Below, in pieces: positions 16,513 through 31,043 of a stretch of 64,000 bases of DNA (positions are counted from its first letter, which is position 1; each line of letters opens with the position of its first letter). Position numbers and translations under genes: made by a program. The notes beneath the pieces were generated by a model. That model searched no databases. It was given only the letters and a program-made list of their open reading frames with translations, and had not been told where the DNA came from. The DNA is from Jiangella endophytica (GTDB taxonomy: Bacteria; Actinomycetota; Actinomycetes; Jiangellales; Jiangellaceae). The DNA is taken from NCBI RefSeq assembly GCF_003427025.1, contig NZ_QVAI01000001.1, positions 1-64,000 on the forward strand. Reading direction: 5' to 3'.

Positions 16513-17304
16513 TCAGAAGTCGTTGGCGCTCTTGGCCATCAGCCCGCCGTCGCAGACCAGGTGTGATCCGGTCACGTACGACGACTCGTCCGACAGCAGC
16601 CACAGCACCGCCGCGGCCACCTCGTCGGGGCGGCCGAGCCGCCCGAGCGGGACCTGGGTCGCGGCCGCCGCCCGCAGCCGCGCGACGGCATCGGCCCGCT
16701 CGGCGGCGGGCACCCCGGTCGTCAGCATCGCGGTGTCGGTCGCACCGGGCACGACGGCGTTGACGCGGATGCCGTGCGGCGCGTAGTCCAGCGCCGCCGA
16801 CCGGACGAACGCCGACACCCCGCCCTTCGAGGCCGCGTAGGCGCTGTTGCCGCCGCCGGCATGCCCGACGAACGCGGCGGGCGACGACGTGCAGACGAGG
16901 GAGCCGCCGCGTCCGGCCGCGACGAGCCGGCGCAGCGCCTCGCGGCAGGTCAGGAACACGCCGACCAGGTTGACGGCGACGACGCGCTCCCAGTCGGGCA
17001 CGGCGAACGAATGCACCGGCGCGTTGACCTCGACGCCGGCGTTGGCGAACACCGCGCCGGGGTCGCCGACCGCGGCCGACACCGCGTCGAACGCCGCCGT
17101 CACGGACGTCTCCGAGGACACGTCGCAGGCCACGGCCACCGCACCGCCCGCGCCCGCCTCGAGGGCTGACGCCGCGGCTGCGGACGCCGCCGACGAGTCC
17201 ACGTCGAGCGCCGCCACCCGCGCACCCCGTGCGGCCGCCGCCAGCAGCACCGCCCGGCCGATGCCGGACCCGGCCCCGGTGACGGCGACCGTCTCAGCCC
17301 ACAT
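16513..17304 (-). CDS. SDR-family NAD(P)-dependent oxidoreductase
   Basis: 263 residues. Classical SDR features: cofactor motif TGAGSGIG at about 9-16, the ANAG-type motif FANAGVEVN, catalytic Ser in CTSSPAAF and the YxxxK motif in YAASKGG, then a C-terminal YVTGSHLVCDGG. The start codon overlaps the end of gntR by 11 bp, so translation is probably coupled. It likely oxidises a sugar or sugar lactone in the pathway fed by the ABC importer on the other arm of the locus. Confidence 0.92.
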   Translation of the reverse strand: MWAETVAVTGAGSGIGRAVLLAAAARGARVAALDVDSSAASAAAASALEAGAGGAVAVACDVSSETSVTAAFDAVSAAVGDPGAVFANAGVEVNAPVHSFAVPDWERVVAVNLVGVFLTCREALRRLVAAGRGGSLVCTSSPAAFVGHAGGGNSAYAASKGGVSAFVRSAALDYAPHGIRVNAVVPGATDTAMLTTGVPAAERADAVARLRAAAATQVPLGRLGRPDEVAAAVLWLLSDESSYVTGSHLVCDGGLMAKSANDF

Positions 17305-17977
17305 CGTGGCCGCCCGGCCCGTCCGGCCCGTCCGGCGCGAGGTGGATGTGGATGTGCTGCTCGACGGCGTCCAGCACGGTCTCGCGATCGCCGGCGCGCA
17401 GCACGTCGAGCAGCTCCTGGTGCTGCCTGGCGACGTCGCCGGGGTCGGCGTGCGCCGGGGCGTCGCGGCGGAAGTACGCGCGCACCCGCGGCTGGATCGT
17501 CTTCCACATCTGCAGGCAGTGCCGCTGCTCGGAACGGGTGATGACCAGCTCGTGGAAGCGGATGTCGAGGTCGGCCAGCCGCTCGGCCTCGCCGTCGGCG
17601 GCCGCGACCAGCATGTCGTCGACCAGCCGCTGCAGGGCGTCGAGGTCGTCGTCGGTCAGCTTGCCCAGCGCCTTGCCGAAGGCGAAGCGCTCCAGCGTGA
17701 TGCGGATCGGCACCAGCACCTGCTCGACCTCGTCCTGCGAGACGCCGAGCACCTCGCTGCCGCGGTACGGATAGGACGCGATCAGCCCCTCCTGCTCGAG
17801 CTGGCGCAGGGCCTCGCGGATGGGGGCGCGGCTGGTGCCCAGCTCGGCGGCGAGGTCGAGTTCGACCAGCCGGTCGCCCGGCTTGAGCCGGCCGCTGGTG
17901 ATCGCCTCGCGCAGGATCTCGGCGACGTGCTCGCGCCGCGACAGGCTCGGGACCCGTCGCAACCCCAGCCCGCTCAC
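17294..17977 (-). CDS. GntR-family (FadR/FCD type) repressor
   Basis: 227 residues from a GTG with GGAGG five bases upstream. The winged helix is RREHVAEILREAITSGRLKPGDRLVELDLAAELGTSRAPIREALRQLEQEGLI. The C-terminal all-helical FCD domain carries the metal/ligand-binding pattern DIRFHELVI, and the closing AVEQHIHIHL. Such proteins sense a carboxylated sugar or organic acid. It heads the leftward operon and faces the importer operon across 138 bp that contain a near-perfect palindrome, so it probably controls both arms. Confidence 0.92.
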   Translation of the reverse strand: MSGLGLRRVPSLSRREHVAEILREAITSGRLKPGDRLVELDLAAELGTSRAPIREALRQLEQEGLIASYPYRGSEVLGVSQDEVEQVLVPIRITLERFAFGKALGKLTDDDLDALQRLVDDMLVAAADGEAERLADLDIRFHELVITRSEQRHCLQMWKTIQPRVRAYFRRDAPAHADPGDVARQHQELLDVLRAGDRETVLDAVEQHIHIHLAPDGPDGPGGHDVG

Positions 17978-18030
17978 GGGTACCTCCGACCTCTGATGGC
18001 GTCCATGGCCATGATCCTAGAGCATATGAG

Positions 18031-18046
18031 CGACTGTCGACAATCG
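18031..18046. promoter_or_regulatory. Candidate GntR operator
   Basis: CGACTGTCGACAATCG is a 16-bp palindrome with one mismatched pair around a perfect TGTCGACA core. It sits in the divergent region 54 bp from the gntR start and 69 bp from the solute-binding-protein start. FCD-type GntR regulators commonly bind such TTGTNNACAA-like sites. Confidence 0.6.
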
Positions 18047-18115
18047 GCCGTCGACCCTGCTACGGTCCCGCTCTACGAAATCCACCGGTCATCCCGACGA
18101 ACCGAGGAGCCGACC

Positions 18116-19465
18116 ATGAACCTGCGTCACCGTGGGGCCGCGCTGGTCGCGGCGGGTGCCGTCGTCACCGCGCTGGCCGCGTGCAGCAGCAGCGAGTCCG
18201 CCCGCCCGGAGGAACCGGCGGCCGACGACGCCGCGGTTGCTGCCGCCGAGGAGGCCGCGCTCGCGGCCGCCGGCGGTGAGGAGCTCGGCGGCAGCGTGAC
18301 GATGCTCGGCGTGCTGGGCGGCGAGGAGCTCGACGCGTTCCTCAGCGTGGTCGCGCCGTTCGAGGACGCCACCGGCATCGAGGTGCGCTACGAGGGCACC
18401 CGCGACTTCGCCGCCGTCCTGCAGACCCGCGTCGACGGCGGCAACCCGCCCGACCTCGTCGCCACGCCGGCCATCGGCGAGATGGCGGCGCTGGCGGAGC
18501 AGGATGCGCTCGTCGACCTCCGGACGGTGGTCGACGACGCCGTGCTCACCGCGAACTACCCGGCCAGCATGCTCGAGACCGGGACCGCCGGCGGCGAGCT
18601 GTTCGGCCTGTACAACACCGTCAACCTGGGCGGGCTGATCTGGTACGACCCGAAGCGCTACGACGGGCCGACCGACCCGGCCAGCTGGGACGAGCTGCAG
18701 ACGTGGGCCCGCGAGAAAGCGGGCGCCGGTGAGACGCCGTGGTGTGTCGGGCTGGAGAGCGGCGCCGCCAGCGGCTGGCCGGCCGCGGACTTCATCGACG
18801 AGATCCTGCTCCGCCAGGCCGGCCCGGAGTTCCACCGGGCCTGGCGCGAGGGAGCCGAGCCGTGGACGTCGCCGCAGGTCGAGCAGGCCTACGAGACATA
18901 CGGCGAGATGATCGCCGACGGCATGGTCTACGGCGGCACGACGACGGTGCTCAGTACGGACTTCTCCCAGGCCGCCAACCCGATGTTCGCGCCGGAGCCT
19001 GGCTGCTACCTGCTCCAGCAGGCGACGTTCATGGGCGGCATCATCGCCGACGCGTTCCCCGACCTGGCGCCGGGCGAGGACCTCGACTTCTTCCCCGCGC
19101 CGGACTTCAGCCCGGAGCATCCGGGCATCCGATCGATCTCCGGCGAGATCCTCGGCCTGATCACCGAGACGCCGCAGGCGGCCGCGCTGACCCGGTACCT
19201 CGCGTCCACCGAGGCGGGGACGCTGATCGCCGCGACGGGCCGTTGGCTGTCGCCGAACGTGACGGTGCCGGCCGACGCCTACGAGGACCCGTTCCTGCGC
19301 CGCGCCAACGAGGTGCTGACCTCGGCGGAGGCGACCTATCCGCTGGGCAACTCGCTGATGCCGCAGACCGAGGTGGACGCGTTCTGGCAGTCCGGGCTGG
19401 CGTTCGCCCAGGACCCGGGTGATCTCACCGCGATCCTGCAGGGCATCGAGGACGCCCGGGGATGA
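18116..19465 (+). CDS. ABC sugar-binding lipoprotein (family 1 solute-binding protein)
   Basis: 449 residues; GAGGAG precedes the ATG. A signal peptide ends in the lipobox ALAAC (Cys near residue 23), followed by an acidic Ala-rich linker. The mature part starts VTMLGVLGGEELDAFLSVVAPFEDATGIEVRYEGT and has the family traits NPPDLVATPAIGEMAAL and a hinge segment PTDPASWDELQTWA. It captures a sugar or glycoside outside the cell for the two following permeases, with which it overlaps by 4 bp. Closest in style to AlgQ/ABC alpha-glucoside binders, but the ligand is unknown. Confidence 0.9.
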   Translation: MNLRHRGAALVAAGAVVTALAACSSSESARPEEPAADDAAVAAAEEAALAAAGGEELGGSVTMLGVLGGEELDAFLSVVAPFEDATGIEVRYEGTRDFAAVLQTRVDGGNPPDLVATPAIGEMAALAEQDALVDLRTVVDDAVLTANYPASMLETGTAGGELFGLYNTVNLGGLIWYDPKRYDGPTDPASWDELQTWAREKAGAGETPWCVGLESGAASGWPAADFIDEILLRQAGPEFHRAWREGAEPWTSPQVEQAYETYGEMIADGMVYGGTTTVLSTDFSQAANPMFAPEPGCYLLQQATFMGGIIADAFPDLAPGEDLDFFPAPDFSPEHPGIRSISGEILGLITETPQAAALTRYLASTEAGTLIAATGRWLSPNVTVPADAYEDPFLRRANEVLTSAEATYPLGNSLMPQTEVDAFWQSGLAFAQDPGDLTAILQGIEDARG

Positions 19466-20433
19466 TCGCCGACCGCATCGTTCTCACCCTGGCGGCGACG
19501 GCCGTGATCGTCGTCGCCGGCTGGGCCTACCTGCGCCTCGGCGACCGGGCCCTGGCGGCGCTGCCGCGCGGTGCGTACCGGCGGCTGGTGCCGTGGCTGT
19601 TCGCCGGCCCGGCCGTCGCCATGGTGCTGCTGGCGCTCGCCTTCCCCGCCGCCGTCACGGTCGGGTGGAGCTTCGTCGACGCCGACGGCGGGTTCGCGGG
19701 GTTCGCCAACTACGTGCAGACGCTGTCCGACGAGGTCACCCGCATCGCGCTGCGCAACACCGTCCTCTGGGTGGTGCTGCTGCCGTCGCTCGCGGTGCTG
19801 GTCGGGCTGGCCATCGCCGTGCTGGCCGAGCGGGTCCGCTACGGCGCGCTGGTCAAGGCCGCGCTCTTCCTGCCCATCGCGATCTCGGCCGTCGCGGCCG
19901 GGGTGATCTGGAGCTTCATGTACGACTACCAGCCGCCCGGCGCCGCGCAGACCGCGACCCTGAACGCCGTCGTGACGGCGCTGGGCGGCGAGCCGGTCGC
20001 GTGGATCGTCGACACCGCGACGAACAACTACGCGCTGATCGGCGCCACGCTGTGGACGCAGGCCGGGTTCGCGATGGTGATCTTCGACGCGGCGCTGCGC
20101 TCGGTGCCGGGTGAGCTGCTGGAGGCCGCCCGGCTGGACGGAGCGTCGGAGTGGAAGGCGTTCCGGCACGTCACACTGCCGTTCCTGGTGCCGACGGTCG
20201 TGGTCGTGGCGACGACGATGACGGTGACCGCGCTCAAGGCGTTCGACATCGTCTACGTGATGACCAACGGCAACTACGGCACCGACGTGCTGTCGACGGT
20301 CATGTACCGGGCGCTGTTCACGGCCAAGGACAACGGGCTGGCCGGCGCCGTCGCGACGATCCTCATGCTCACCGTCGTGCCGATCATGGTCTTCAACGTG
20401 CGGCAGTTCCGCCGCGAGACCGGGGTCGCGTGA
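19462..20433 (+). CDS. ABC sugar permease (MalF-like)
   Basis: 323 residues with an ATGA overlap to the upstream gene. Eight or so hydrophobic stretches can be seen: an extra N-terminal helix, then the six-helix core. The ATPase-contact EAA loop is EAARLDGASEWKAFRHVTLPFLVP. It forms a heterodimeric channel with the next gene product. No ATP-binding subunit is encoded in the locus, so a shared ATPase such as MsiK is assumed. Confidence 0.92.
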   Translation: MIADRIVLTLAATAVIVVAGWAYLRLGDRALAALPRGAYRRLVPWLFAGPAVAMVLLALAFPAAVTVGWSFVDADGGFAGFANYVQTLSDEVTRIALRNTVLWVVLLPSLAVLVGLAIAVLAERVRYGALVKAALFLPIAISAVAAGVIWSFMYDYQPPGAAQTATLNAVVTALGGEPVAWIVDTATNNYALIGATLWTQAGFAMVIFDAALRSVPGELLEAARLDGASEWKAFRHVTLPFLVPTVVVVATTMTVTALKAFDIVYVMTNGNYGTDVLSTVMYRALFTAKDNGLAGAVATILMLTVVPIMVFNVRQFRRETGVA

Positions 20434-21290
20434 TGGGGGCGGCACGGCTGCGGGCGGTGTGGTGGCGGCGGATCCCGGTGCACGTGGTCGTCGTGGGCGT
20501 CGCCGTGATCTGGGCGGTCCCGCTGCTCGGCCTGGTGGTCAGCGCGTTCCGGCCGTCGTGGGCGGTGCTGTCGTCGGGCTGGTGGGAGTCGTTCGCGCTG
20601 CCCGGCGACTACACGCTGGAGAACTACCGCCGGGTGCTCGACCGCGACGGCATGGCGTTGAGCCTGTTCAACAGTCTCGCGGTGGTGGTGCCGGCGACGG
20701 TGCTGACGGTGGCGCTCGGCGCGGCCGCGGCATACGCGCTGGCCGGGATGCGGTTCCGGCTGCGCAGCGCGGTGCTGCTGACGATCGTCGCGCTGATCAT
20801 CGTGCCGATCCAGATCACGCTGGTGCCGTTGCTGCGGGTGTTCAACCTGCTGGACCTCACCGGCAGCTTCCTCGGCATCTGGCTGGTGCACCTCGGCTTC
20901 GGGCTGCCGTTCGCGGTCTACCTGCTGCACAACTTCTTCGCCGCGATCCCGCGCGAACTGTTCGAGGCGGCCGAGATGGACGGCGCGAGCCGTGGCCAGA
21001 TCTTCTTCTCGATCGTGCTGCCGGTGGCCCGTCCCGCGCTGGCCGCGCTGGCCATCTTCGACTTCGTGTGGACGTGGAACGACCTGCTGGTCGCGCTGAT
21101 CTTCCTCGGCGGGTTCCGCGACGTCGCGCCGATGACCGTCGCGGTGTCGCAGCTGGTCGCGTCGCGCGGCGACGGCTGGGAGATCCTCACGTCCGCCGCC
21201 GTGCTCTCCGTGCTGGTGCCGATGGCCGTGTTCGTCGCGCTGCAACGGCACTTCGTCCGCGGCCTGCTGGCCGGCGTCTCGAAAGGATGA
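20433..21290 (+). CDS. ABC sugar permease (MalG-like)
   Basis: 285 residues. Its ATG overlaps the TGA of the upstream permease by one base. Six membrane helices and the EAA loop EAAEMDGASRGQIFFSIVLPVARPAL identify the MalG/CUT1 partner. It ends LQRHFVRGLLAGVSKG, the usual C-terminus of this subunit. Confidence 0.93.
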   Translation: MGAARLRAVWWRRIPVHVVVVGVAVIWAVPLLGLVVSAFRPSWAVLSSGWWESFALPGDYTLENYRRVLDRDGMALSLFNSLAVVVPATVLTVALGAAAAYALAGMRFRLRSAVLLTIVALIIVPIQITLVPLLRVFNLLDLTGSFLGIWLVHLGFGLPFAVYLLHNFFAAIPRELFEAAEMDGASRGQIFFSIVLPVARPALAALAIFDFVWTWNDLLVALIFLGGFRDVAPMTVAVSQLVASRGDGWEILTSAAVLSVLVPMAVFVALQRHFVRGLLAGVSKG

Positions 21291-21298
21291 CCTGACCC

Positions 21299-24238
21299 AT
21301 GACCTTGCGGATCGGCTTCGGCCGGACGGACCTCACCCCGCCGCTGGGCGTCGAGCTGGCCGGCTTCGGCCCGTTCCTGCGCCGCCGGGCCACGTCGGTG
21401 CACGCGCCGCTGTACGCGCGCGCCGTCGCGGTGACGGGCCCTGGAGCCGGCTCAGGCGGCGGCCGGTGGGTGCTGGTGAGCTGCGACCTGCTGGGGATCG
21501 CGGCCGACGTGGTCGACGACGTGGTCGCGCGGGTGGCCGACGCGACCGGCTGGCGGCCGGACGAGGTCGTCGTCCACGCCACTCACAACCACTCCGGTCC
21601 GGGGACCGTCGAGAACGTCGGCTGGGGCGCGCCGGACGAGCTGTACGTCGCCCGGCTGCCCGAGCTGATCGCGACGGCCGGCATCGCCGCGGTCGCCGCG
21701 CTGGCGCCGGCGACGGTGCGGGAGGCCGTCGTCCCGCTGGACGGGTTCGCGCACAACCGGATGCTGCCGCGGCGCGGGCTGACGAACGCGCGAGCGCTGG
21801 AGGGCAGCTGGACCGAGCCGGACCCGTCCCTGGTCGACCAGGGTGTGCACGTGCTGCGGGTCGACCACGACGGCGCGCTGGCCGGGTTCGTCGCGTCGTA
21901 CTCCTGCCATCCGGTGATCTGCTGCGAGGAGACGTCGGCCGTGCACGGCGACTTCCCTGGCGAGGCGCTGCGGATCGTCGAAGCTGCGCATCCGGGCGCG
22001 ACCGGCGTGTTCCTGCAGGGCGCGCTCGGCGACCTCAACCCGCTGTACGCGCACGGCCCGGCCGACGAGTCGCTGGTCGCGCTGGAGCTGTTCGCCGGCC
22101 GGTTCGCCGACGCCGTCTCGGCCGGGCTCGCGTCGGCCGCGCCGCTCGGCGCGGACTCCGTGGCGGTCGTCAAGCAGGAGATCCCGTACGAGCTGGCCCC
22201 GTACGACATCGACGAGCTGCGCCGACGCCGCGACAAGGCGTACGACGCGCTGGCCGCCGACCCGCAGGCCGGCGTCGCGTACGTGTCGCTGCGCCGCACC
22301 GTCGCCGCGCTCGAGGCCGGCCGGGACGTGCGGCGGCCGCTCTGGGTGCACGCGCTGCGGCTCGGCCCGCTGACCCTGCTCGGCTACAACGTCGAGGTCT
22401 TCCACGGCATCAAACGCCGGTTGGCCGACGCGCTGGGTGAGCACTGCCTGGTGTTGTCGACCACGAACGGCTGGCTGGGCTACGCGCCGACGCACGACGC
22501 GTACGAGGCCCCGGCCGATCCGTACCCCGCGTACGAGGTGCCGATCATCGCCTGTCACCTGCCGTTCCGTCCGGACATCGAGGACGACCTCGTGGCGGCG
22601 GGTGTGCGGGCGGCCGGTCTCGTCGCCGGCGCCGGCGACCCGGACTGGTGGCGCGGCGCCGTCGTCTACGAGTGCCACCTGCCCAGCTTCCGCGACGGGT
22701 CCGGCGACGGCATCGGCGACCTGGAAGGGCTGATCGAGGGCCTGGACTACCTGCGCGACCTGGGCGTCGACGCCGTCTGGACCGGGCCGTTCTACCGCTC
22801 GCCGCTGCTCGACCAGGGCTTCGACGTGTCCGACTACCTGGACGTCGAGCCGGTGTTCGGGACGCTGGAGACGTTCGACCGGCTGGTGGCCGCGGCGCAC
22901 GAGCGGGGCATCAGGGTGATCGTCGACTACATCCCGAACCACACGTCCGACCAGCACCCGTGGTTCGTCGCGTCGCGCTCGTCGCGCGACGACCCGAAGC
23001 GGGACTGGTACGTCTGGCGCGACGTGCCGAACAACTGGACCAGCGAGGCCGGCGGGTCGGTGTGGGAGTACGACGCGCCGACCGGGCAGTACTACCTGCA
23101 CTCGCACCTGGTCGAGCAGCCGGACCTGAACTGGCGGAACCCGCAGGTGCGGGCGGCGTTGCTGGACGTGCTGCGGTTCTGGCTGGACCGGGGCGCGGAC
23201 GGCGTGCGGATCGACGTCGCGCACATGCTGCTGAAGGACCCGGAGTTCCGCGACAATCCCGAGGCGCCCGGCGGGCACCACAACGAGTTCGACCTGCAGC
23301 ATCCCGACTTCGGCACCCAGCTGCACGTCCATGATCGGCGGCACCCGGACACCTTCGCCGCGCTGGCCGAGATCCGGGCGGTCGCCGACGAATACGCGGG
23401 CGGCCGCGTGACGATCGCCGAGATCGAGGCGATGCCGTGGCCGGACTGGGCCGAGTACTACGCCGCCGGCATGCACCTGCCGTTCCCGTTCCGGCTGCTG
23501 GAGACGCACTGGCGGGCCGACCTGCTGCGCGCGGAGCTGGAGGGGCTGTACGCGGCGCTGCCCGACGGCGCCTGGCCGATCGTCGCGTTGGGCAACCACG
23601 ACCGCGTCCGGCTGGCCACCCGGCTCGGCCGTCCGCAGGCGCGGGTCGCGGCTGTGCTGCTGCTCACCCTGGCCGCGACGCCGTGCCTGCTCTACGCCGA
23701 CGAACTGGGCATGACCGACCAGCCGGTGCCGTTGCAGCGCCAGCGCGACTACTTCGCCCGCACCCACGGCGGCGTGAGCCGCGACCCGTCGCGGACCCCG
23801 CTGCCCTGGACCGACGGCGTCAACGGCGGGTTCTCCTCCGCTGCCGAGTCGTCGCTGTGGTTGCCGGTGTCGCACGACGTCGCGACGCTCAACGCGGCCG
23901 CTCAGCTGGCCGATCCGGCGTCGATGCTGCGGCTGTACCGGGCGCTGACCCGGCTTCGGCATGCGTCGCCGGCACTGCGGCGCGGGTCGATCGCCTTCGC
24001 CGACGCGACGGCGTCGGTGCTCGCCTACACCCGCACCGCGGGGAGCGACCGGAAGCTCGTTCTGCTCAACCTGGCCGACCGGCCGGCGACGGTGCCGGTC
24101 GCGGTGACCGGCCGGGTGCTGGTGTCGACGGCTTCGCCCGGTGGCGCCCCGGCGCGCCGGGTGTCCGGGACGGAGTTCGTGCTGGCCGCCGACGAGGCGG
24201 TCGTCATCGACGTGGAGAGGGACCATGCGGATCACTGA
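21299..24238 (+). CDS. Fusion of neutral-ceramidase-like domain and GH13 glucosidase
   Basis: 979 residues in one open frame. Residues 1 to about 445 match the neutral/alkaline ceramidase-like amidohydrolase fold: IGFGRTDLTPPLGVELAGFG, zinc-ligand motif VVVHATHNHSGPG, SCHPV, HGDFPGE. From about 446 (DPDWWRGAVVYECHLPSF) a complete GH13 barrel follows: VDYIPNHTSDQHPW, GVRIDVAH (nucleophile Asp639), VTIAEIEAMP (acid/base Glu708), GNHDR (Asp768), plus a C-terminal beta domain. No signal peptide, so cytoplasmic. It may cleave an amide or ester and then a glucosidic bond of an imported glycoside. The two halves are normally separate genes. Confidence 0.85.
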   Translation: MTLRIGFGRTDLTPPLGVELAGFGPFLRRRATSVHAPLYARAVAVTGPGAGSGGGRWVLVSCDLLGIAADVVDDVVARVADATGWRPDEVVVHATHNHSGPGTVENVGWGAPDELYVARLPELIATAGIAAVAALAPATVREAVVPLDGFAHNRMLPRRGLTNARALEGSWTEPDPSLVDQGVHVLRVDHDGALAGFVASYSCHPVICCEETSAVHGDFPGEALRIVEAAHPGATGVFLQGALGDLNPLYAHGPADESLVALELFAGRFADAVSAGLASAAPLGADSVAVVKQEIPYELAPYDIDELRRRRDKAYDALAADPQAGVAYVSLRRTVAALEAGRDVRRPLWVHALRLGPLTLLGYNVEVFHGIKRRLADALGEHCLVLSTTNGWLGYAPTHDAYEAPADPYPAYEVPIIACHLPFRPDIEDDLVAAGVRAAGLVAGAGDPDWWRGAVVYECHLPSFRDGSGDGIGDLEGLIEGLDYLRDLGVDAVWTGPFYRSPLLDQGFDVSDYLDVEPVFGTLETFDRLVAAAHERGIRVIVDYIPNHTSDQHPWFVASRSSRDDPKRDWYVWRDVPNNWTSEAGGSVWEYDAPTGQYYLHSHLVEQPDLNWRNPQVRAALLDVLRFWLDRGADGVRIDVAHMLLKDPEFRDNPEAPGGHHNEFDLQHPDFGTQLHVHDRRHPDTFAALAEIRAVADEYAGGRVTIAEIEAMPWPDWAEYYAAGMHLPFPFRLLETHWRADLLRAELEGLYAALPDGAWPIVALGNHDRVRLATRLGRPQARVAAVLLLTLAATPCLLYADELGMTDQPVPLQRQRDYFARTHGGVSRDPSRTPLPWTDGVNGGFSSAAESSLWLPVSHDVATLNAAAQLADPASMLRLYRALTRLRHASPALRRGSIAFADATASVLAYTRTAGSDRKLVLLNLADRPATVPVAVTGRVLVSTASPGGAPARRVSGTEFVLAADEAVVIDVERDHADH

Positions 24239-25373
24239 CATCAAGGCGGCCGGGCTGCGCGGCGCGACCCCGAAGGGCGGCTGGGCGCGCGAGCTGGACC
24301 CGGACGACAACGTCCACACGCTGGTCGCCGTGCACACCGACGAGGGGGTCGTCGGCGTCGGCAGCGTGTTCTCCAGCGAGTCGCTGGTCCGCGCGGCGCT
24401 GGACCAACTGCGCCCGCTCGCCGTCGGCGCCGATCCTCGGGAGCCGGACCGGGTCAGCCAGATCCTGCACGAGAACACCTTCTGGCTGGGCCGCGGTGGC
24501 GCGATCACGCACGCCGTCAGCGGCGTCGACATCGCGCTGTGGGACATCCTCGGCCAGGTCACCGGGCTGCCCGTGAGCACGCTCCTGGGCGGGCGGTACC
24601 GCGAGCGGGTCCGGCCGTACGCGTCGGTCCTGATGGACGACCCGCCGGTGCTGAAGGACGACCTCGCCCGGCTGGTGGCGCTCGGGTTCACCGCGTTCAA
24701 GATCGGCTGGGGCTCGTTCGGCCGGGCGAGCGACGCGGTCGACGAGGAGATCGTGCGGGCCGCGCGCGAGACCGTCGGGCCGGACGCGCTGCTGGCCGTC
24801 GACGCCGGCGGGTCCGACGCGTTCTGGGCGCGCGGGCTGTCGTGGGCGGTGCGGACGGCGGACATGCTGGCCGGCTACGACGTCGCCTGGTTCGAGGAGG
24901 CGCTGCGCCCGGACGACGTCGACGGCTTCGCCGAGCTGCGGCGGCGCTCGCCGGTGCCGATCTCCGGCGGCGAGGTGCTGACCCGGCGGCAGGACTTCCA
25001 CCGGTTCCTCACCGCGGGCGCGTTCGACATCGTGCAGCCCGACACCACCAAGGGCGGCGGGCTCTCGGAGTCGCGCCGGGTGGCCTGGCTGGCCGCCGAG
25101 TTCGGCGTCGGGTTCGTCCCGCACGGCTGGAACACCGCCGTCGGGCTGGCCGCTGATCTGCAGCTGGCGGCGGCGCTGCCCGGCACCGAGCTGGTCGAGT
25201 ACAAGACCGGGTCGGCCTACATCGACGAACTGGCCGCGGGCGGCTTCGCGCTGGACGCCGACGGCCTGCTGCCGGTGCCGTCGACGCCGGGGCTGGGCCT
25301 GCGGCTCGACGACGACGCGTTGGAGCGGTACGCGCCGGGCCACGACCTGTTCGCGCCGGGGGCTGGTCGATGA
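24225..25373 (+). CDS. Enolase-superfamily (mandelate racemase type) sugar acid dehydratase
   Basis: 382 residues; starts 14 bp inside the end of the fusion gene with GGAGAGGG upstream. The capping domain is followed by a barrel with AFKIGWGSFG (lysine of strand 2, but the second Lys of a KxK motif is Gly), metal ligands in AVDAGG, WFEEAL and SGGEVL, and the catalytic His in VPHGWNTAVG. Members of this subgroup dehydrate sugar acids such as aldonates. It would act on the acid made by the dehydrogenases of the other arm. Confidence 0.9.
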   Translation: MRITDIKAAGLRGATPKGGWARELDPDDNVHTLVAVHTDEGVVGVGSVFSSESLVRAALDQLRPLAVGADPREPDRVSQILHENTFWLGRGGAITHAVSGVDIALWDILGQVTGLPVSTLLGGRYRERVRPYASVLMDDPPVLKDDLARLVALGFTAFKIGWGSFGRASDAVDEEIVRAARETVGPDALLAVDAGGSDAFWARGLSWAVRTADMLAGYDVAWFEEALRPDDVDGFAELRRRSPVPISGGEVLTRRQDFHRFLTAGAFDIVQPDTTKGGGLSESRRVAWLAAEFGVGFVPHGWNTAVGLAADLQLAAALPGTELVEYKTGSAYIDELAAGGFALDADGLLPVPSTPGLGLRLDDDALERYAPGHDLFAPGAGR

Positions 25374-26674
25374 GCGCCGTCGCGCTGCCCGCCGTGCTGG
25401 GCGGCGACCCCGTCCTCACCCCGGCGAACGAGCCGGTGTGGCCGGAGGTCGGCGGTGTCGAGAGCGCGTTTCTCGCCGAGGTCACCGACAGCGGGCAGTG
25501 GGTCGGGTACGCGAACCACCCGGCGAAGTGGCGAGCGGTGCTCGAGCAGGTCGTCGCGGACACCACCGGGTATCGCTACGGCGTCGGCCAGCCCAACGGC
25601 ACGCTCGCCATCGCGAGCGGGCTGCGGGCGCAGCTGCACGCCCGGGGCGGCTCGTGGGCGCGGGAACGCGACGAGGTGCTGGTGGCGGACCTCACGCACG
25701 CGTCCGCGCACCACGGCGTCACGCTGGGGGTGGCCGCTCAGCTGGGCCGGGCGCCGCGGCTGGTGCCGATCCCGGCCAAGCTGGACGCGACGATGGACGA
25801 GGAGGTCGCGGCGGCCTACCTGGCCCAGCACGCCGACCGGGTGCTGGCCGTCGTCCCCGCGACGATGTACGGCAACTTCGGCGCGATCGGCCGGTTCGCG
25901 TCGCTGGGCCGGGAGCACGACGTCGCCGTCCACCACGACAACGCGCTCGGCGGCGCGGCCCGGTACGACGGCCCCGGCGCCCCGACGGCGTCGCTGTCGG
26001 GCCAGGGCGGCGGCAAGGCGGCGCCGTCCTGCGAGGGTGGCCTGACGCTGACCGACGACCCGGAGCTGGCCGCGCTGCTGCGCGCCGACACCGACTGCGG
26101 CACCGGGCCCGGCCGGCTCGACCCGATCCCGTACGCCGAGGTCGGGCCGATGATGGCCGGCAACCAGCGGATGGGGGAGCAGCCGGCGGCGCTGCTGCTC
26201 GTGCAGTGGCTTCGTGCGCTGCACGCCCGGCTGCTGATGCGGGAGAACCGCCGGCTGATCCGTGCGCTGATCGCCGACCCCGGTCTGTTCCCCGTCCCTG
26301 TGCTCTGGAACCCGCCGCCGGACGCCGAGTACCCGCCGTTCTTCGCGCTCTACCTGTCCTGCACCGACGCCCTGGAGCAGGAGCTCGGGCTGACGCCGAA
26401 GGACCTGCGGGTGACGCTGGCCGCGGAAGGGATCTGGGCCGAGGCCGGCTTCACGCCGACGCACCTTGACCCGGCGTGGCGGCACTGGGCCGACGGCGTG
26501 CCGCTGTCCTATGACGTGTCGGCGCGAGTGGTCGAGCGGGCGGTGTTCGTGCACACGAAGTTCCTGCGCGACCCGCGGTTCCCGGAGGTGCTGGGCGAGA
26601 TCCTCCGGCGGGTGGTCGCGCACCGGGACCGGCTGCGCGGCATCGGCGACGGGCGGCCGGAACCGGTGTGGTGA
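25370..26674 (+). CDS. DegT/DnrJ/EryC1-like PLP-dependent enzyme
   Basis: 434 residues with a 4-bp overlap to the dehydratase gene. It shows the fold-type I pattern: a glycine-rich YGVGQPNGTLAIASGL near the cofactor phosphate, Asp in VHHDNALGG, and a candidate Schiff-base Lys in SGQGGGKAAPSCEGG, the equivalent of the SFQxxKxxxxGEGG segment of DegT proteins. Relatives aminate keto-sugars. Its place last in the operon suggests that a deoxy-keto sugar is aminated, or that an imported amino sugar is deaminated. The exact reaction is not known. Confidence 0.75.
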   Translation: MSAVALPAVLGGDPVLTPANEPVWPEVGGVESAFLAEVTDSGQWVGYANHPAKWRAVLEQVVADTTGYRYGVGQPNGTLAIASGLRAQLHARGGSWARERDEVLVADLTHASAHHGVTLGVAAQLGRAPRLVPIPAKLDATMDEEVAAAYLAQHADRVLAVVPATMYGNFGAIGRFASLGREHDVAVHHDNALGGAARYDGPGAPTASLSGQGGGKAAPSCEGGLTLTDDPELAALLRADTDCGTGPGRLDPIPYAEVGPMMAGNQRMGEQPAALLLVQWLRALHARLLMRENRRLIRALIADPGLFPVPVLWNPPPDAEYPPFFALYLSCTDALEQELGLTPKDLRVTLAAEGIWAEAGFTPTHLDPAWRHWADGVPLSYDVSARVVERAVFVHTKFLRDPRFPEVLGEILRRVVAHRDRLRGIGDGRPEPVW

Positions 26675-26676
26675 GC

Positions 26677-27006
26677 TCACTTCGGCGGGAGGCCGCCGGC
26701 GAAGCCGAGTCCGCGGCCGACCCAGCGGCGCAGATCGTCCTCCTCGGCGAGCGCGGCGGCGTCGACCACCAGCCAGCCCTTCATCGGGCGGCCGGTCATG
26801 TCGAACAGCTTCGCGCCCGGCTCGCCGAGGGCCGCCTCGTGCTCGTCGGCAGGTAGCCGGACCAGCAGGTCGTCGTGGTGGACCCCACAGGCCATGTTGC
26901 CGTTGACCAGGAACGCGATGCCGCCGAACATCCGCTTCTCGGTGACGTCCAGGCGTTCGGCGACGATCTCGCGGATGCGGGCGGCCAGTCCTTCGTCGTA
27001 GGCCAT
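26677..27006 (-). CDS. TfoX N-terminal domain protein
   Basis: 109 residues starting MAYDEGLAARIREIV. TEKRMFGGIAFLVNGNMACGV and the C-terminal LRRWVGRGLGFAGGL are typical of small stand-alone TfoX_N proteins. Full-length TfoX/Sxy regulates competence in gamma-proteobacteria; the role of the isolated domain in actinobacteria is unknown. The gene is convergent with the DegT-like gene (2 bp apart). Confidence 0.85.
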   Translation of the reverse strand: MAYDEGLAARIREIVAERLDVTEKRMFGGIAFLVNGNMACGVHHDDLLVRLPADEHEAALGEPGAKLFDMTGRPMKGWLVVDAAALAEEDDLRRWVGRGLGFAGGLPPK

Positions 27007-28229: not shown

Positions 28230-29315
28230 TCAGGCCGTGGCCGCCCGCGGAGGCGAGACCGAACCCTCCAGTGTCTGCGTGCAGGGCAGCAGGATCTGCC
28301 GCTCGTAGTCGCCGTGCGGGTCGGTGATCAGCGACGTCAGCAGCCGGACCGCGCGCCGCCCCATGGCGTTGCGCGGCACCCGCAGCGTCGCCCACTCGCG
28401 CCCGCCGGACTCGGCTCCCGGGTCGTCGACCAGCACGACCACTGACAGATCGTCGGGAATCGACAGCCCGCGCAGGCTCGCCATCGCGGTCAGCACGCGC
28501 AGCAGCGCCGCCGACTCGATCATCACGACGGTGGTGCCGGCGGCCAGGCAGGCGTCCAGCCACTGTGCCGTCAGCTCCTCGGGCCGTTCGAACGCCGGCG
28601 TCGGTATCGGCAGCCCGAACCGGCCGAGCGCGCTGCTGAACCCCTCCCACCGGTCGATCTGCGGCTCGTCGCGCAGCGTCTCTCCGAGGTAGGCGAAGGT
28701 GCGGTGGCCCATGGCGACCAGCTCGTCGACGATCTGGACGGTGGCCGAGCGGTAGTCGCCGCCGACGTAGGCGATATCGGCGCCCGGCACCTCGCGGTGC
28801 CCGATGTACACGAACGGGTGGCCGTCGGCGGCCAGCCGGGCGAGGTCGTCGCGGTGGGTGTGGTGGCCGAGCAGCAGGCTGCCGGTGGCCTGGCGCAGGC
28901 TGTTGACGCGGCCCTGGTAGATGCGCCGGACGCCGTCTTCGTCCTGCGCCGCGGTGAACAGCACCAGGTTGTGCCCCTCGGCGCCGGCCTGCTCCTCGAT
29001 GCCGCGCAGGAACTCGAAGTAGTAGTCGCGGGCGCTGGTCGGGAAGATCGGCTCGAACGTGTGGACGCCGAGCAGCAGCGGCAGCGTCTCGGGGCCCGGC
29101 ATCTGCCAGGCGACCGTCCGCGGCTGGACGCTCGCGACGTAGTTCAGCCGGCGGGCCGCCTCGACCACCCGGCGCTGCGTCTCGGGCGAGATGCGGGCAT
29201 GCTCGCCGGCGCCGGTGAGCACCACGGACACCGTCGACTGCGAGACGCCGGCCTCGCGGGCGACGTCGGCCTGTCGCGAACGGCGGCTCGCCGCAGTGTC
29301 TTCCGAGTTCGTCAC
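28230..29315 (-). CDS. LacI-family transcriptional regulator
   Basis: 361 residues from a GTG. The DNA-binding domain reads RQADVAREAGVSQSTVSVVLTGAGEHARISPETQRRVVEAARRLNYVAS. The hinge and periplasmic-binding-protein-like core follow (LLLGVHTFEPIFPTSARDYYFEFLRGIEEQAG). It is second in a two-gene leftward unit after an FAD oxidoreductase (19 bp gap). It probably represses the divergent FAD-oxidoreductase/GH38/ABC operon as well as its own transcript and responds to the imported sugar. Confidence 0.93.
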   Translation of the reverse strand: MTNSEDTAASRRSRQADVAREAGVSQSTVSVVLTGAGEHARISPETQRRVVEAARRLNYVASVQPRTVAWQMPGPETLPLLLGVHTFEPIFPTSARDYYFEFLRGIEEQAGAEGHNLVLFTAAQDEDGVRRIYQGRVNSLRQATGSLLLGHHTHRDDLARLAADGHPFVYIGHREVPGADIAYVGGDYRSATVQIVDELVAMGHRTFAYLGETLRDEPQIDRWEGFSSALGRFGLPIPTPAFERPEELTAQWLDACLAAGTTVVMIESAALLRVLTAMASLRGLSIPDDLSVVVLVDDPGAESGGREWATLRVPRNAMGRRAVRLLTSLITDPHGDYERQILLPCTQTLEGSVSPPRAATA

Positions 29316-29334
29316 CGCTGTGTCACCCCCGTGT

Positions 29335-30882
29335 TCAGTGTGCGGCCGGCTGGGTCAGGATGGCGCCGCCGAGTTCGAGGTCGCGCCGGAGCGCGGTGTA
29401 CTCGACGTCCTGGCACGCGACCTTATCGGTGATCGACAGTGCCGCGGCGACACCGGCGGCCTCGCCGAGCATCATGAACACCGGCTCCATGCGGGCCGAC
29501 GCGAAGGCGATGTGCGAGGCGGAGATGGCCGAGGCGACGAGCAGGTTGGAGCACTCGCCGGCCCGCGGCACCAGAGCCTGGTAGGAGACGCCGAACGGGG
29601 CGGCCAGCGGCTGCTGCACGTTGCCCTCGTTGCGCGGCTGCCCGTCGACGAGCACCCGCTTGGCGTTGTGGGAGTCCATGACGTACGAGGCCAGCGCCAC
29701 CGGGTCGGCCGCCCGGGCCGCGCCGGTGGCGTCGTGCTGGGTGATGACGTAGCCGGACACCATGCGCCGCGCCTCGCGGATGTACAGCTGCGCCGGCCAG
29801 TGCGAGCTGTCGGTGAACTCGCCCGGCGCCAGCCCGAACCGGTTGGTCGAGTGGCGGACCGCCGCCGGCAGCCGCGGGTCGGTGGCCAGGAAGTGCAGCA
29901 GACCGGCCTGGTAGCGGACGTGGTCCTGGAAGATCTCCTCGCGCCGGGCGTAGTCGCCCTCGGGCCAGTCGTGGTTCGCGCCGATGTGGTCCGACGAGAA
30001 CGCGCCGTGGTTGTTCATGTCGTGGACGTCGCCGTGCACGAGTGTGGTGCGGCCGAACAGTTCGTAGCCGCCGGCCTCGACGTAGCGGCGCAGCAGCTCG
30101 TAGCGGTCAGGGTCGTAGCCGGCCGGCCGCGGGAACGGCAGGCGGTCCGGCCCGGTGCTGACGTGCAGCCGGAAGTTGTAGGCCTGGATACGCTGATCGC
30201 CGTCGCCGACCTCGCCGTACGCGTCGGGCGTGATGCCCGGGAGCAGTCCGGACGCCGGATCGCCCGGCACGAGGTAGGGGTCGACCGGCAGCTGGAACTG
30301 GTGGTTGACGCTGTGCTGGACGCCCGCCGCCGGTTCGTCGTAGACCGCCGACGACTCGCGCCCCAGCGCGTAGGTGACGCCGGCCGCGGCCAGCAGGTCG
30401 CCCTCGTAGGAGGCGTCGACGTAGACCTTCGCGCGGTACCCGCTGCCGTCGTCGGTGCGCAGTTCGGTGATGCGCTCGCCGTCGCGCTCGACCGACGCCA
30501 GGTGCCGCCGCCGGTGCACCGTGACCCCTGCCTCGGCCAGCCAGCGCTCGAAGATCTGCTCGCCGACGTGCGCCTCGACGTCCCAGTGCGGCGCGGGCGC
30601 CCCGTAGGCCGTCGCGACGTCGTCGTAGAACGCCCGGGCCAGGCCGCCGACGGTGCGTGCGTCGCCGACGTCGGTGGTGCCGAGCCCGCCCGTCGTCATG
30701 CCGCCGACGTGGTCGCCGAAGGCCAGCAGCACCACCGACAGCCCGCCGCGGGCTGCCCGGACCGCCGCGGTGACGCCGCCCGACGTGGCGCCGTACACGA
30801 CGACGTCGGCCTCGGCGTCCTCGGGCGGGCCGGCGGGCGGATGGTGGTAGCGCAGACCGGGCAACGCGGGTTCGGACGTCAT
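29335..30882 (-). CDS. FAD-dependent oxidoreductase (FAD_oxidored family), paralogue 1
   Basis: 515 residues. The dinucleotide-binding motif is DVVVYGATSGGVTAAVRAARGG, followed by GDHVGGMTTGGLG; VYVDASYEGDLLAAAGV is the second diagnostic motif of this family, often mislabelled xanthan lyase. IREARRM and SASHIAFASARMEPVFMMLGEAAG close the FAD site. No secretion signal. It likely oxidises a sugar hydroxyl. Transcribed away from two paralogues; the start has no ribosome site but a TAGAAC -10 seven bases upstream suggests a leaderless message. Confidence 0.88.
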   Translation of the reverse strand: MTSEPALPGLRYHHPPAGPPEDAEADVVVYGATSGGVTAAVRAARGGLSVVLLAFGDHVGGMTTGGLGTTDVGDARTVGGLARAFYDDVATAYGAPAPHWDVEAHVGEQIFERWLAEAGVTVHRRRHLASVERDGERITELRTDDGSGYRAKVYVDASYEGDLLAAAGVTYALGRESSAVYDEPAAGVQHSVNHQFQLPVDPYLVPGDPASGLLPGITPDAYGEVGDGDQRIQAYNFRLHVSTGPDRLPFPRPAGYDPDRYELLRRYVEAGGYELFGRTTLVHGDVHDMNNHGAFSSDHIGANHDWPEGDYARREEIFQDHVRYQAGLLHFLATDPRLPAAVRHSTNRFGLAPGEFTDSSHWPAQLYIREARRMVSGYVITQHDATGAARAADPVALASYVMDSHNAKRVLVDGQPRNEGNVQQPLAAPFGVSYQALVPRAGECSNLLVASAISASHIAFASARMEPVFMMLGEAAGVAAALSITDKVACQDVEYTALRRDLELGGAILTQPAAH

Positions 30883-30889
30883 GGATGAG

Positions 30890-30895
30890 GTTCTA
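30890..30895 (-). promoter_or_regulatory. -10 element of a leaderless promoter (leftward)
   Basis: TAGAAC on the minus strand, seven bases before the ATG at 30882, which lacks a ribosome site. Confidence 0.4.
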
Positions 30896-30921
30896 GCATC
30901 AGCAGGTGATGGTTGTCTATC

Positions 30922-30933
30922 GCTGATATTGGC
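30922..30933. promoter_or_regulatory. Candidate LacI operator, site 1
   Basis: GCTGATATTGGC fits the palindrome GCNNATATNNGC. It lies 40 bp from the leftward oxidoreductase start, where bound repressor would cover its promoter. A second copy of the pattern is at 31032. Confidence 0.5.
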
Positions 30934-30970
30934 AAACCGATCTTCGGCCCGCACGGTGGAGAGTTTCCTC

Positions 30971-30999
30971 TTGACATCGGCTGGGGACGTGGCTGTAGC
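30971..30999 (+). promoter_or_regulatory. Promoter of the rightward FAD-oxidoreductase/GH38/ABC operon
   Basis: A consensus -35 TTGACA (30971-30976), a 17-base spacer and a weak -10 TGTAGC (30994-30999). It lies 67 bp upstream of the first gene and between the two candidate LacI sites. Confidence 0.6.
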
Positions 31000-31031
31000 G
31001 TGACCGAAACATTGTGGCGGGTGCCACATCG

Positions 31032-31043
31032 GCAAATATTAGC
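31032..31043. promoter_or_regulatory. Candidate LacI operator, site 2
   Basis: GCAAATATTAGC, the second GCNNATATNNGC palindrome, located between the -10 and the start codon of the rightward operon, a classical roadblock position. It is a conspicuous AT island in a very GC-rich region. Confidence 0.55.

Follow-up and report, generated by a model that had tools for sequence, protein, structure and literature searches.

A ceramidase-like domain fused to a GH13 alpha-glucosidase domain within a putative sugar-uptake operon of Jiangella endophytica

The first 64,000 nucleotides of contig NZ_QVAI01000001.1 of Jiangella endophytica (hereafter the window) contain an open reading frame at 21299-24238 on the plus strand that starts with ATG and encodes 979 residues without an internal stop. 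The initial annotation had described this gene as one continuous frame joining two enzymes that are usually encoded apart, and Pfam searches bore this out. The Ceramidase_alk family (PF04734) matched residues 4-233 with 48.3 bits (gathering cut-off, 32.1), the Alpha-amylase family (PF00128) matched residues 463-896 with 353.6 bits over positions 6-446 of a 446-position profile, and DUF3459 matched residues 879-961. The protein comprises a catalytic domain of the neutral-ceramidase fold (residues 1 to about 442) and, after it, a glycoside hydrolase family 13 (GH13) alpha-glucosidase domain (residues 450-979), both of them complete. The gene lies in an operon that begins with genes for a binding protein and two permeases and continues with the fusion gene, an enolase-type gene and a DegT-type gene, with small or overlapping junctions between the genes; genes for a GntR-family regulator and for a short-chain dehydrogenase/reductase (SDR)-like protein are oriented divergently from it.

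Active sites of the two halves

The GH13 half matched the Halomonas protein HaG (3wy1) with a phmmer E value of 2.4e-119. HaG, QsGH13 (7voh) and XgtA (6aav) were its best solved relatives, and we take all three to be members of subfamily GH13_23. The Jiangella protein shares with them an alignment of about 500 residues, the catalytic triad and the HPWF and RDNP motifs. It differs from them in carrying an N-terminal fusion and in reaching none of the cut-offs of the best 25 of 33 matching NCBIfam models. The best of these models, "beta-galactosidase BglA", was rejected as a name, given that the fusion scored 433 of the required 900. Residues D639, E708 and D768, which are invariant in 9/9 fusions, align with Asp202, Glu271 and Asp333 of HaG, for which the roles of nucleophile, acid/base and stabiliser, respectively, have been described (PMC8928221).

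For the N-terminal half, the PF04734 match covers only positions 2-232 of the 509-position profile, corresponding to the front of the N-terminal domain. A structure predicted for residues 1-448 had a mean predicted local distance difference test score (pLDDT) of 66.5 and a predicted template modelling score (pTM) of 0.76. When this model was searched with Foldseek, four chains were returned at E ≤0.001, and all were neutral ceramidases (2zxc_A, E 4.8e-16). VIA-align placed 366 of its residues on residues 3-492 of the Pseudomonas aeruginosa neutral ceramidase (2zws) with a Z score of 24.8 and a root-mean-square deviation of 4.3; human neutral ceramidase aligned at Z 23.5, and no other fold scored above Z 4.0. 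According to the predicted model, therefore, the N-terminal half has the neutral-ceramidase fold along its whole length. The C-terminal domain of the solved neutral ceramidases is missing: the alignment stops at residue 492 of a 630-residue chain, and the GH13 domain stands there instead.

We take the zinc ligands of neutral ceramidases to be His, His, Glu and Tyr, which are H97, H204, E411 and Y448 in the bacterial enzyme. The counterparts of H97 and H204 aligned in a significant stretch and those of E411 and Y448 in a non-significant stretch only, and a residue alignment of 31 rows showed all four columns. This alignment comprised 26 loci and five further proteins, with two genes entered twice (L028 is the same gene as L097, and L030 the same as L078). 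The four zinc-ligand residues of the Jiangella protein (H96, H204, E366 and Y395) were conserved in 31/31 rows, and all four are invariant in the nine fusions and in the split relative described below; H96 falls within the HATHNHSGPG motif at residues 93-102. In contrast, the serine of the GDxSP motif, presumably the catalytic one in the solved neutral ceramidases, is absent from the fusions, which have Asn at this position (N247 here) or, in G005, Asp. Across the 31 rows this column held Ser in 10 and Asn in 12; the remaining nine had Ala (5), Asp (3) or Trp (1). The zinc-ligand residues are thus retained in 21/31 rows from which the serine is missing. The Ser rows were six distinct genes that match the full PF04734 profile (L078-L082 and L097), two of them again (L030 and L028), and L029 and L025; serine was thus present in 6/6 distinct genes matching the whole profile. 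PF04734 itself was found in 19/246 genomes of the phylum, and 6 of the 30 loci brought by that search entered the residue count. The statement in the initial annotation that both halves keep their catalytic motifs hence holds for the GH13 triad and for the four zinc-ligand residues, and fails at the serine column.

Because this column is occupied by Asn (Asp in one species), ceramide is an unlikely substrate of the N-terminal half. A true ceramidase joined to a glucosidase, the two acting on alpha-glucosyl sphingolipids, would be in keeping with a PF04734 score above the cut-off and with a high-Z fold match to neutral ceramidases only. We nonetheless consider it very improbable, given that the serine is missing where all six distinct full-profile PF04734 genes have it, that no secretion signal is evident by eye, that the C-terminal part of the solved enzymes is absent, and that the gene is surrounded by a sugar importer and sugar-acid-type enzymes. 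In comparison with the P. aeruginosa and human enzymes, the Jiangella half shares the catalytic-domain fold and the four zinc-ligand positions; it differs in having Asn or Asp for Ser, in being shorter with nothing aligned past P. aeruginosa residue 492, in lacking a signal peptide visible by eye, in its fusion to GH13 and in its location in a sugar operon. By the features tested, the protein is a member of the ceramidase fold family and of GH13; with neither the serine nor the C-terminal domain in place, it ought not to be classed as a ceramidase.

Conservation and origin of the fusion

When 99 related genomes were searched with the ceramidase-like half, matches at E ≤0.001 were found in 22 (the genome under study included). 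Close matches (E <1e-180) were confined to this genome, eight other Jiangella genomes and one genome of the sister genus. The closest GH13 halves were found in these nine Jiangella genomes too, each following the ceramidase-like half immediately and without a change of frame. The pair was thus present in 9/12 Jiangella genomes and was fused in all nine, in an unbroken frame of 945-982 residues; in the other three (G002, G003 and G006), neither half of the fusion nor the DegT-type protein had a close match. The initial annotation had named, as findings that would speak against it, relatives that always carry two genes and a frameshift at the junction; when checked, these failed in the face of nine unbroken fusions. 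An assembly error, or a stop codon lost in one strain, has a negligible probability and is already refuted by the recurrence of the same frame in nine genomes, three of which (G001, G008 and G010) are single-contig assemblies.

In wider searches, the fused subfamily was found in 1/396 genomes of the phylum sample at E ≤1e-40, namely the genome under study. A contig search returned eight loci, of which four were fused Jiangella loci (J. aurantiaca, J. anatolica, J. muralis and J. ureilytica, not additional to the nine genomes), one was a split locus of Phytoactinopolyspora and three were distant. Among the sampled genomes the fusion was found only in Jiangella; these samples are no proof of absence, and the PF04734 matches of the phylum were not checked for other fusions. 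Among the literature matches listed, no title or abstract start named a ceramidase-GH13 fusion. Both domain families are already known; within the genomes searched, Jiangella alone carried their combination. One candidate for a further split pair was rejected: in G017 (C17), positions compared by reading among the GH13 matches listed placed a ceramidase-like gene within about 5 kb of a GH13 gene, but on the opposite strand and in a cluster of its own.

Selection on the two halves was compared by the ratio of nonsynonymous to synonymous substitution rates (dN/dS). Over 36 pairs of the nine genes, the mean was 0.247 for the first domain and 0.242 for the GH13 domain; the absolute values are uncertain owing to high GC content and codon bias, and what matters is that the two domains are equal. 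Similar purifying selection maintains both halves. The mean for the linker, which has only 10-12 codons in this comparison, was 0.72.

The initial annotation had seen no linker at the junction. The last predicted helix stops at residue 442 and GH13 homology begins at about W450, so that the junction is short but present. In 9/9 fused genes, 7-10 residues separate a conserved RAAG from a conserved WWRG, and codon alignment showed that linker length differs among species through insertions or deletions of whole codons. Near this region, codon 436 (22604-22606) is GTG in 8/9 fused genes and ATG in 1/9, and it is a putative internal start for a separate GH13 product.

The split relative is in Phytoactinopolyspora alkaliphila (L039/L073), where the gene order of the operon is the same and the two halves are separate genes overlapping by ATGA. 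Its ceramidase-like protein has 456 residues and its GH13 protein 570 residues from the overlapping ATG; by tblastn they are 62% and 75% identical to the respective halves of the fusion. The GH13 gene lies in a different frame, with 33 residues before WWRG when counted from that ATG, or a smaller number if translation begins at a later ATG. The lost stop codon pictured in the initial annotation would hence not be enough: a change of frame and loss of both the stop and the leader are needed. In a tree of GH13 sequences the nine fused rows fall on one side of one branch, with support of 85/89, which is below the starred level, and presence in 80% of bootstrap trees; under midpoint rooting, the separate GH13 rows of G021 and G020 adjoin the fused rows. 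It is most likely that the fusion arose once, from translationally coupled genes. Both halves have relatives that stand alone, which makes a joining event in the Jiangella lineage a more economical account than fission, and joining would be the direction of the change. The gene then offers a clear example of the joining of an ATGA-coupled gene pair whose split state survives in the sister genus.

Operon and regulatory region

The features of the locus are given in Table 1. Genes of the operon are 81-97% identical in the eight other Jiangella and 56-83% identical in P. alkaliphila.

Table 1. Features of the fusion gene and its operon, with window coordinates and the evidence for each
Feature	Position	Strand	Evidence or remark
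SDR dehydrogenase-like protein, downstream of regulator	16513..17304	-	adh_short_C2 188.8 bits (Pfam); in 10/10 other loci
GntR-family regulator with FCD (FadR-type) domain, divergent	17294..17977	-	Pfam GntR 66.1 bits, FCD 80.6 bits; adjoins operon in 10/10 other loci
16-bp palindrome CGACTGTCGACAATCG, proposed GntR operator	18031..18046		Invariant in 11/11 intergenic regions
Sugar-binding lipoprotein of ATP-binding cassette (ABC) transporter, probably CUT1 type	18116..19465	+	PDB sequence matches: best 3vxb, E 1.2e-12; AcbH, E 4e-7
ABC transporter permease 1	19462..20433	+	BPD_transp_1 55.1 bits (Pfam)
ABC transporter permease 2	20424..21290	+	BPD_transp_1 58.9 bits (Pfam)
Fusion gene: ceramidase-like half, residues 1 to about 442	21299..22624	+	PF04734; predicted model compared with P. 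aeruginosa neutral ceramidase
Fusion gene: junction/linker between last predicted helix (427-442) and W450	22625..22645	+	Helix from model; codon alignment of 9 fused genes
Fusion gene: GH13 alpha-glucosidase half, residues 450-979, with D639/E708/D768	22646..24235	+	PF00128, DUF3459, phmmer match to HaG
Enolase-superfamily (MR_MLE) sugar-acid dehydratase-like protein	24225..25373	+	MR_MLE_C 200.2 bits (Pfam); 14-bp overlap with fusion gene
DegT/DnrJ/EryC1-type aminotransferase-like protein	25370..26674	+	PF01041 72.0 bits (Pfam)

The MR_MLE protein has PDB relatives that include 3sjn, 4ggb and the galactonate dehydratase 5olc; nine were found at E 1e-35 and none at E 1e-60. The SDR-like protein had no solved relative at E 1e-45. 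The relatives of the DegT-type protein in the PDB include perosamine synthetase and 2-deoxy-scyllo-inosose aminotransferase. Scores fell below the cut-offs of 15/15 matching NCBIfam models for the MR_MLE protein and of 4/4 for the DegT-type protein. Matches to the latter at E ≤1e-50 were found in 13/296 genomes, only two of which (G057 and G507) lie outside the family. In these two genomes, from another family in the class, the DegT-like proteins (L121 7144-8454 and L122 5465-6805) are 62-69% identical and are encoded beside a gene judged by eye to be of major facilitator superfamily transporter type; no other protein of the operon was matched in the 17-18 kb read around them.

The palindrome, which is situated between the divergently oriented GntR and transporter genes, was identical in all the aligned intergenic regions, those of P. 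alkaliphila and G020 (a member of the same genus) included. In a scan of 23 genomes, to which G020 and G021 did not belong, one exact copy was found in each of the nine operon-bearing Jiangella. No copy within one mismatch was present in the three operon-less Jiangella, and two one-mismatch sites were found in one genome of another family. The palindrome is likely to be the operator of the GntR protein. A promoter scan gave one promoter-like site, on the minus strand at 18040-18011, which was not used in our interpretation; no terminator-like site was found in 17900-27000.

The gene content of the operon is reduced in G020. There, the interval between the GntR and GH13 genes lacks the three transporter genes and the ceramidase-like gene, and the GH13, MR_MLE, DegT, GntR and SDR genes remain. 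At this locus (L068 9414-11905), the GntR gene stands directly beside the GH13-MLE-DegT genes, with the palindrome still present. This gene content implies that the GH13 step is usable without the fused partner.

Farther downstream in the window, a LacI-type regulator and an FAD-dependent oxidoreductase are encoded at 28230-31035 on the minus strand, and in at least three congeners (L044, L046 and L047) both are likewise found in the vicinity of the operon.

Proposed function of the fusion protein

We conclude that the gene is a genuine and probably single-origin fusion, fixed in the Jiangella lineage. It would encode a cytosolic bifunctional hydrolase in a GntR-regulated operon for sugar uptake and catabolism, and we give this explanation as a whole, the two-step reading that follows included, a probability of about 0.68. 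Our best reading of the sequence is that the protein would act as a two-step hydrolase for an imported alpha-glucoside bearing an amide, ester or lactone. The ABC transporter would import an alpha-glucoside of modest size, and the GH13 half would take off its terminal alpha-glucosyl unit by a retaining Asp/Glu mechanism. The ceramidase-like half, as a zinc hydrolase without the serine, would cut an amide (our first choice), an ester or a lactone, either on the same compound or on the released aglycone. Tethering may hold the two steps close together at a 1:1 ratio, and the products would then be handed to the aminotransferase-like and dehydratase-like proteins and to the SDR protein. When a gene fusion is conserved, this strongly indicates that the two proteins serve a common process, and this one ties the ceramidase-like family to small-sugar catabolism.

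We place the reaction in the cytosol and on an imported alpha-glucoside because the operon encodes an importer, the alpha-glucosidase site is intact and no signal peptide is visible by eye. The cytoplasmic two-step enzyme proposed in the initial annotation therefore appears reasonable, with the importer encoded directly upstream. An amide is the first choice because neutral ceramidases are amidases, because the aminotransferase-like protein of the operon could take a freed amine, and because some relatives of the ceramidase-like half adjoin genes of suitable types. The ceramidase-like gene adjoins AstE/AspA deacylase-type genes in L074 and L075, and distant ceramidase-like genes lie directly beside genes for SIS-domain proteins (sugar isomerase type) in L129 (5930-8102) and L128 (5323-7442). 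Also, a DegT-type gene is found on the other strand near the ceramidase-like gene in L124, and aminotransferase-like, SDR-like and sugar-transporter genes were recognised by eye beside it in L130. Among these six relatives the serine is absent except in L129; the L128 gene (the same as L022) is without it.

Several observations weigh against this reading. The L129 gene (the same as L025) has Ser in the column, and four other loci (L123, L125, L126 and L127) have varied neighbourhoods in which no sugar-linked pattern was seen by eye; the sample of neighbourhoods is small and unsystematic. PF04734 scores were below the 32.1 cut-off for L129 (28.2) and L075 (31.8), and the L128 stretch matched no family. 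The full-length fusion was predicted by AlphaFold with a pLDDT of 45, and this model was not used, which bears on the relative placement of the two sites. Moreover, the ceramidase-like step is either dispensable in G020 or supplied elsewhere, and a half without the serine could have changed or lost its catalysis.

The last two points are also what would favour a non-enzymatic role, in which the ceramidase-like half would serve the GH13 half as a folded scaffold or as a regulator: the ceramidase serine position is Asn or Asp, and the half is absent from G020, where the GH13 gene persists. We regard this as distinctly unlikely, given that the four zinc-ligand residues are invariant in the nine fusions and the split relative, that dN/dS equals that of the GH13 half, and that the 21 serine-less rows of the wider family keep these residues.

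The main rival, unlikely in our view but to be taken more seriously than the scaffold, is sugar-lactone hydrolysis by the zinc half. In this scheme, the GH13 half would free a sugar, the SDR protein would oxidise it to a lactone, the zinc half would open the lactone, and the enolase-type protein would dehydrate the resulting acid. Such a scheme makes use of the SDR and galactonate-dehydratase-related proteins encoded in the locus, and none of the operon genes included in the Pfam scan was recognised as another lactonase. FCD-type regulators fit sugar acids, as the scheme would have it, and loss of the half in G020 would be tolerable since lactones open spontaneously. However, neutral ceramidases are amidases, the scheme leaves the aminotransferase-like protein without a role, and the SDR protein or the dehydratase would be a more natural fusion partner for a lactonase than a glucosidase.

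A broader proposal, which we hold to be less likely than not, may be put forward tentatively. The many bacterial "neutral ceramidases" that lack the serine and keep the zinc ligands may constitute a separate class of cytosolic zinc hydrolases acting on N-acylated or amide-bearing sugars and aminocyclitols, with the Jiangella fusion as the link between such enzymes and the alpha-glucosidase, aminotransferase, SDR protein and sugar-acid dehydratase of one alpha-glucosyl amide pathway. This would make the fusion a Rosetta-stone case for a family that is named after a lipid reaction, lacks the usual serine in most of the aligned rows and is probably misnamed, and whose function has become testable, given a single soluble protein and its defined operon. 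The standalone serine-less proteins of Actinomycetota (for example L031, L074 and L075) resemble the Jiangella half in keeping the zinc-ligand residues without the serine. They are 32-37% identical to it over the aligned part, and they differ from it in being unfused to GH13 in the loci read and in having varied neighbourhoods. At L075 (1452-11371), which is from a metagenome-assembled actinomycete genome, two AstE/AspA-type deacylase genes and genes for an enolase-superfamily protein, an amidohydrolase and a beta-eliminating lyase accompany the ceramidase-like gene.

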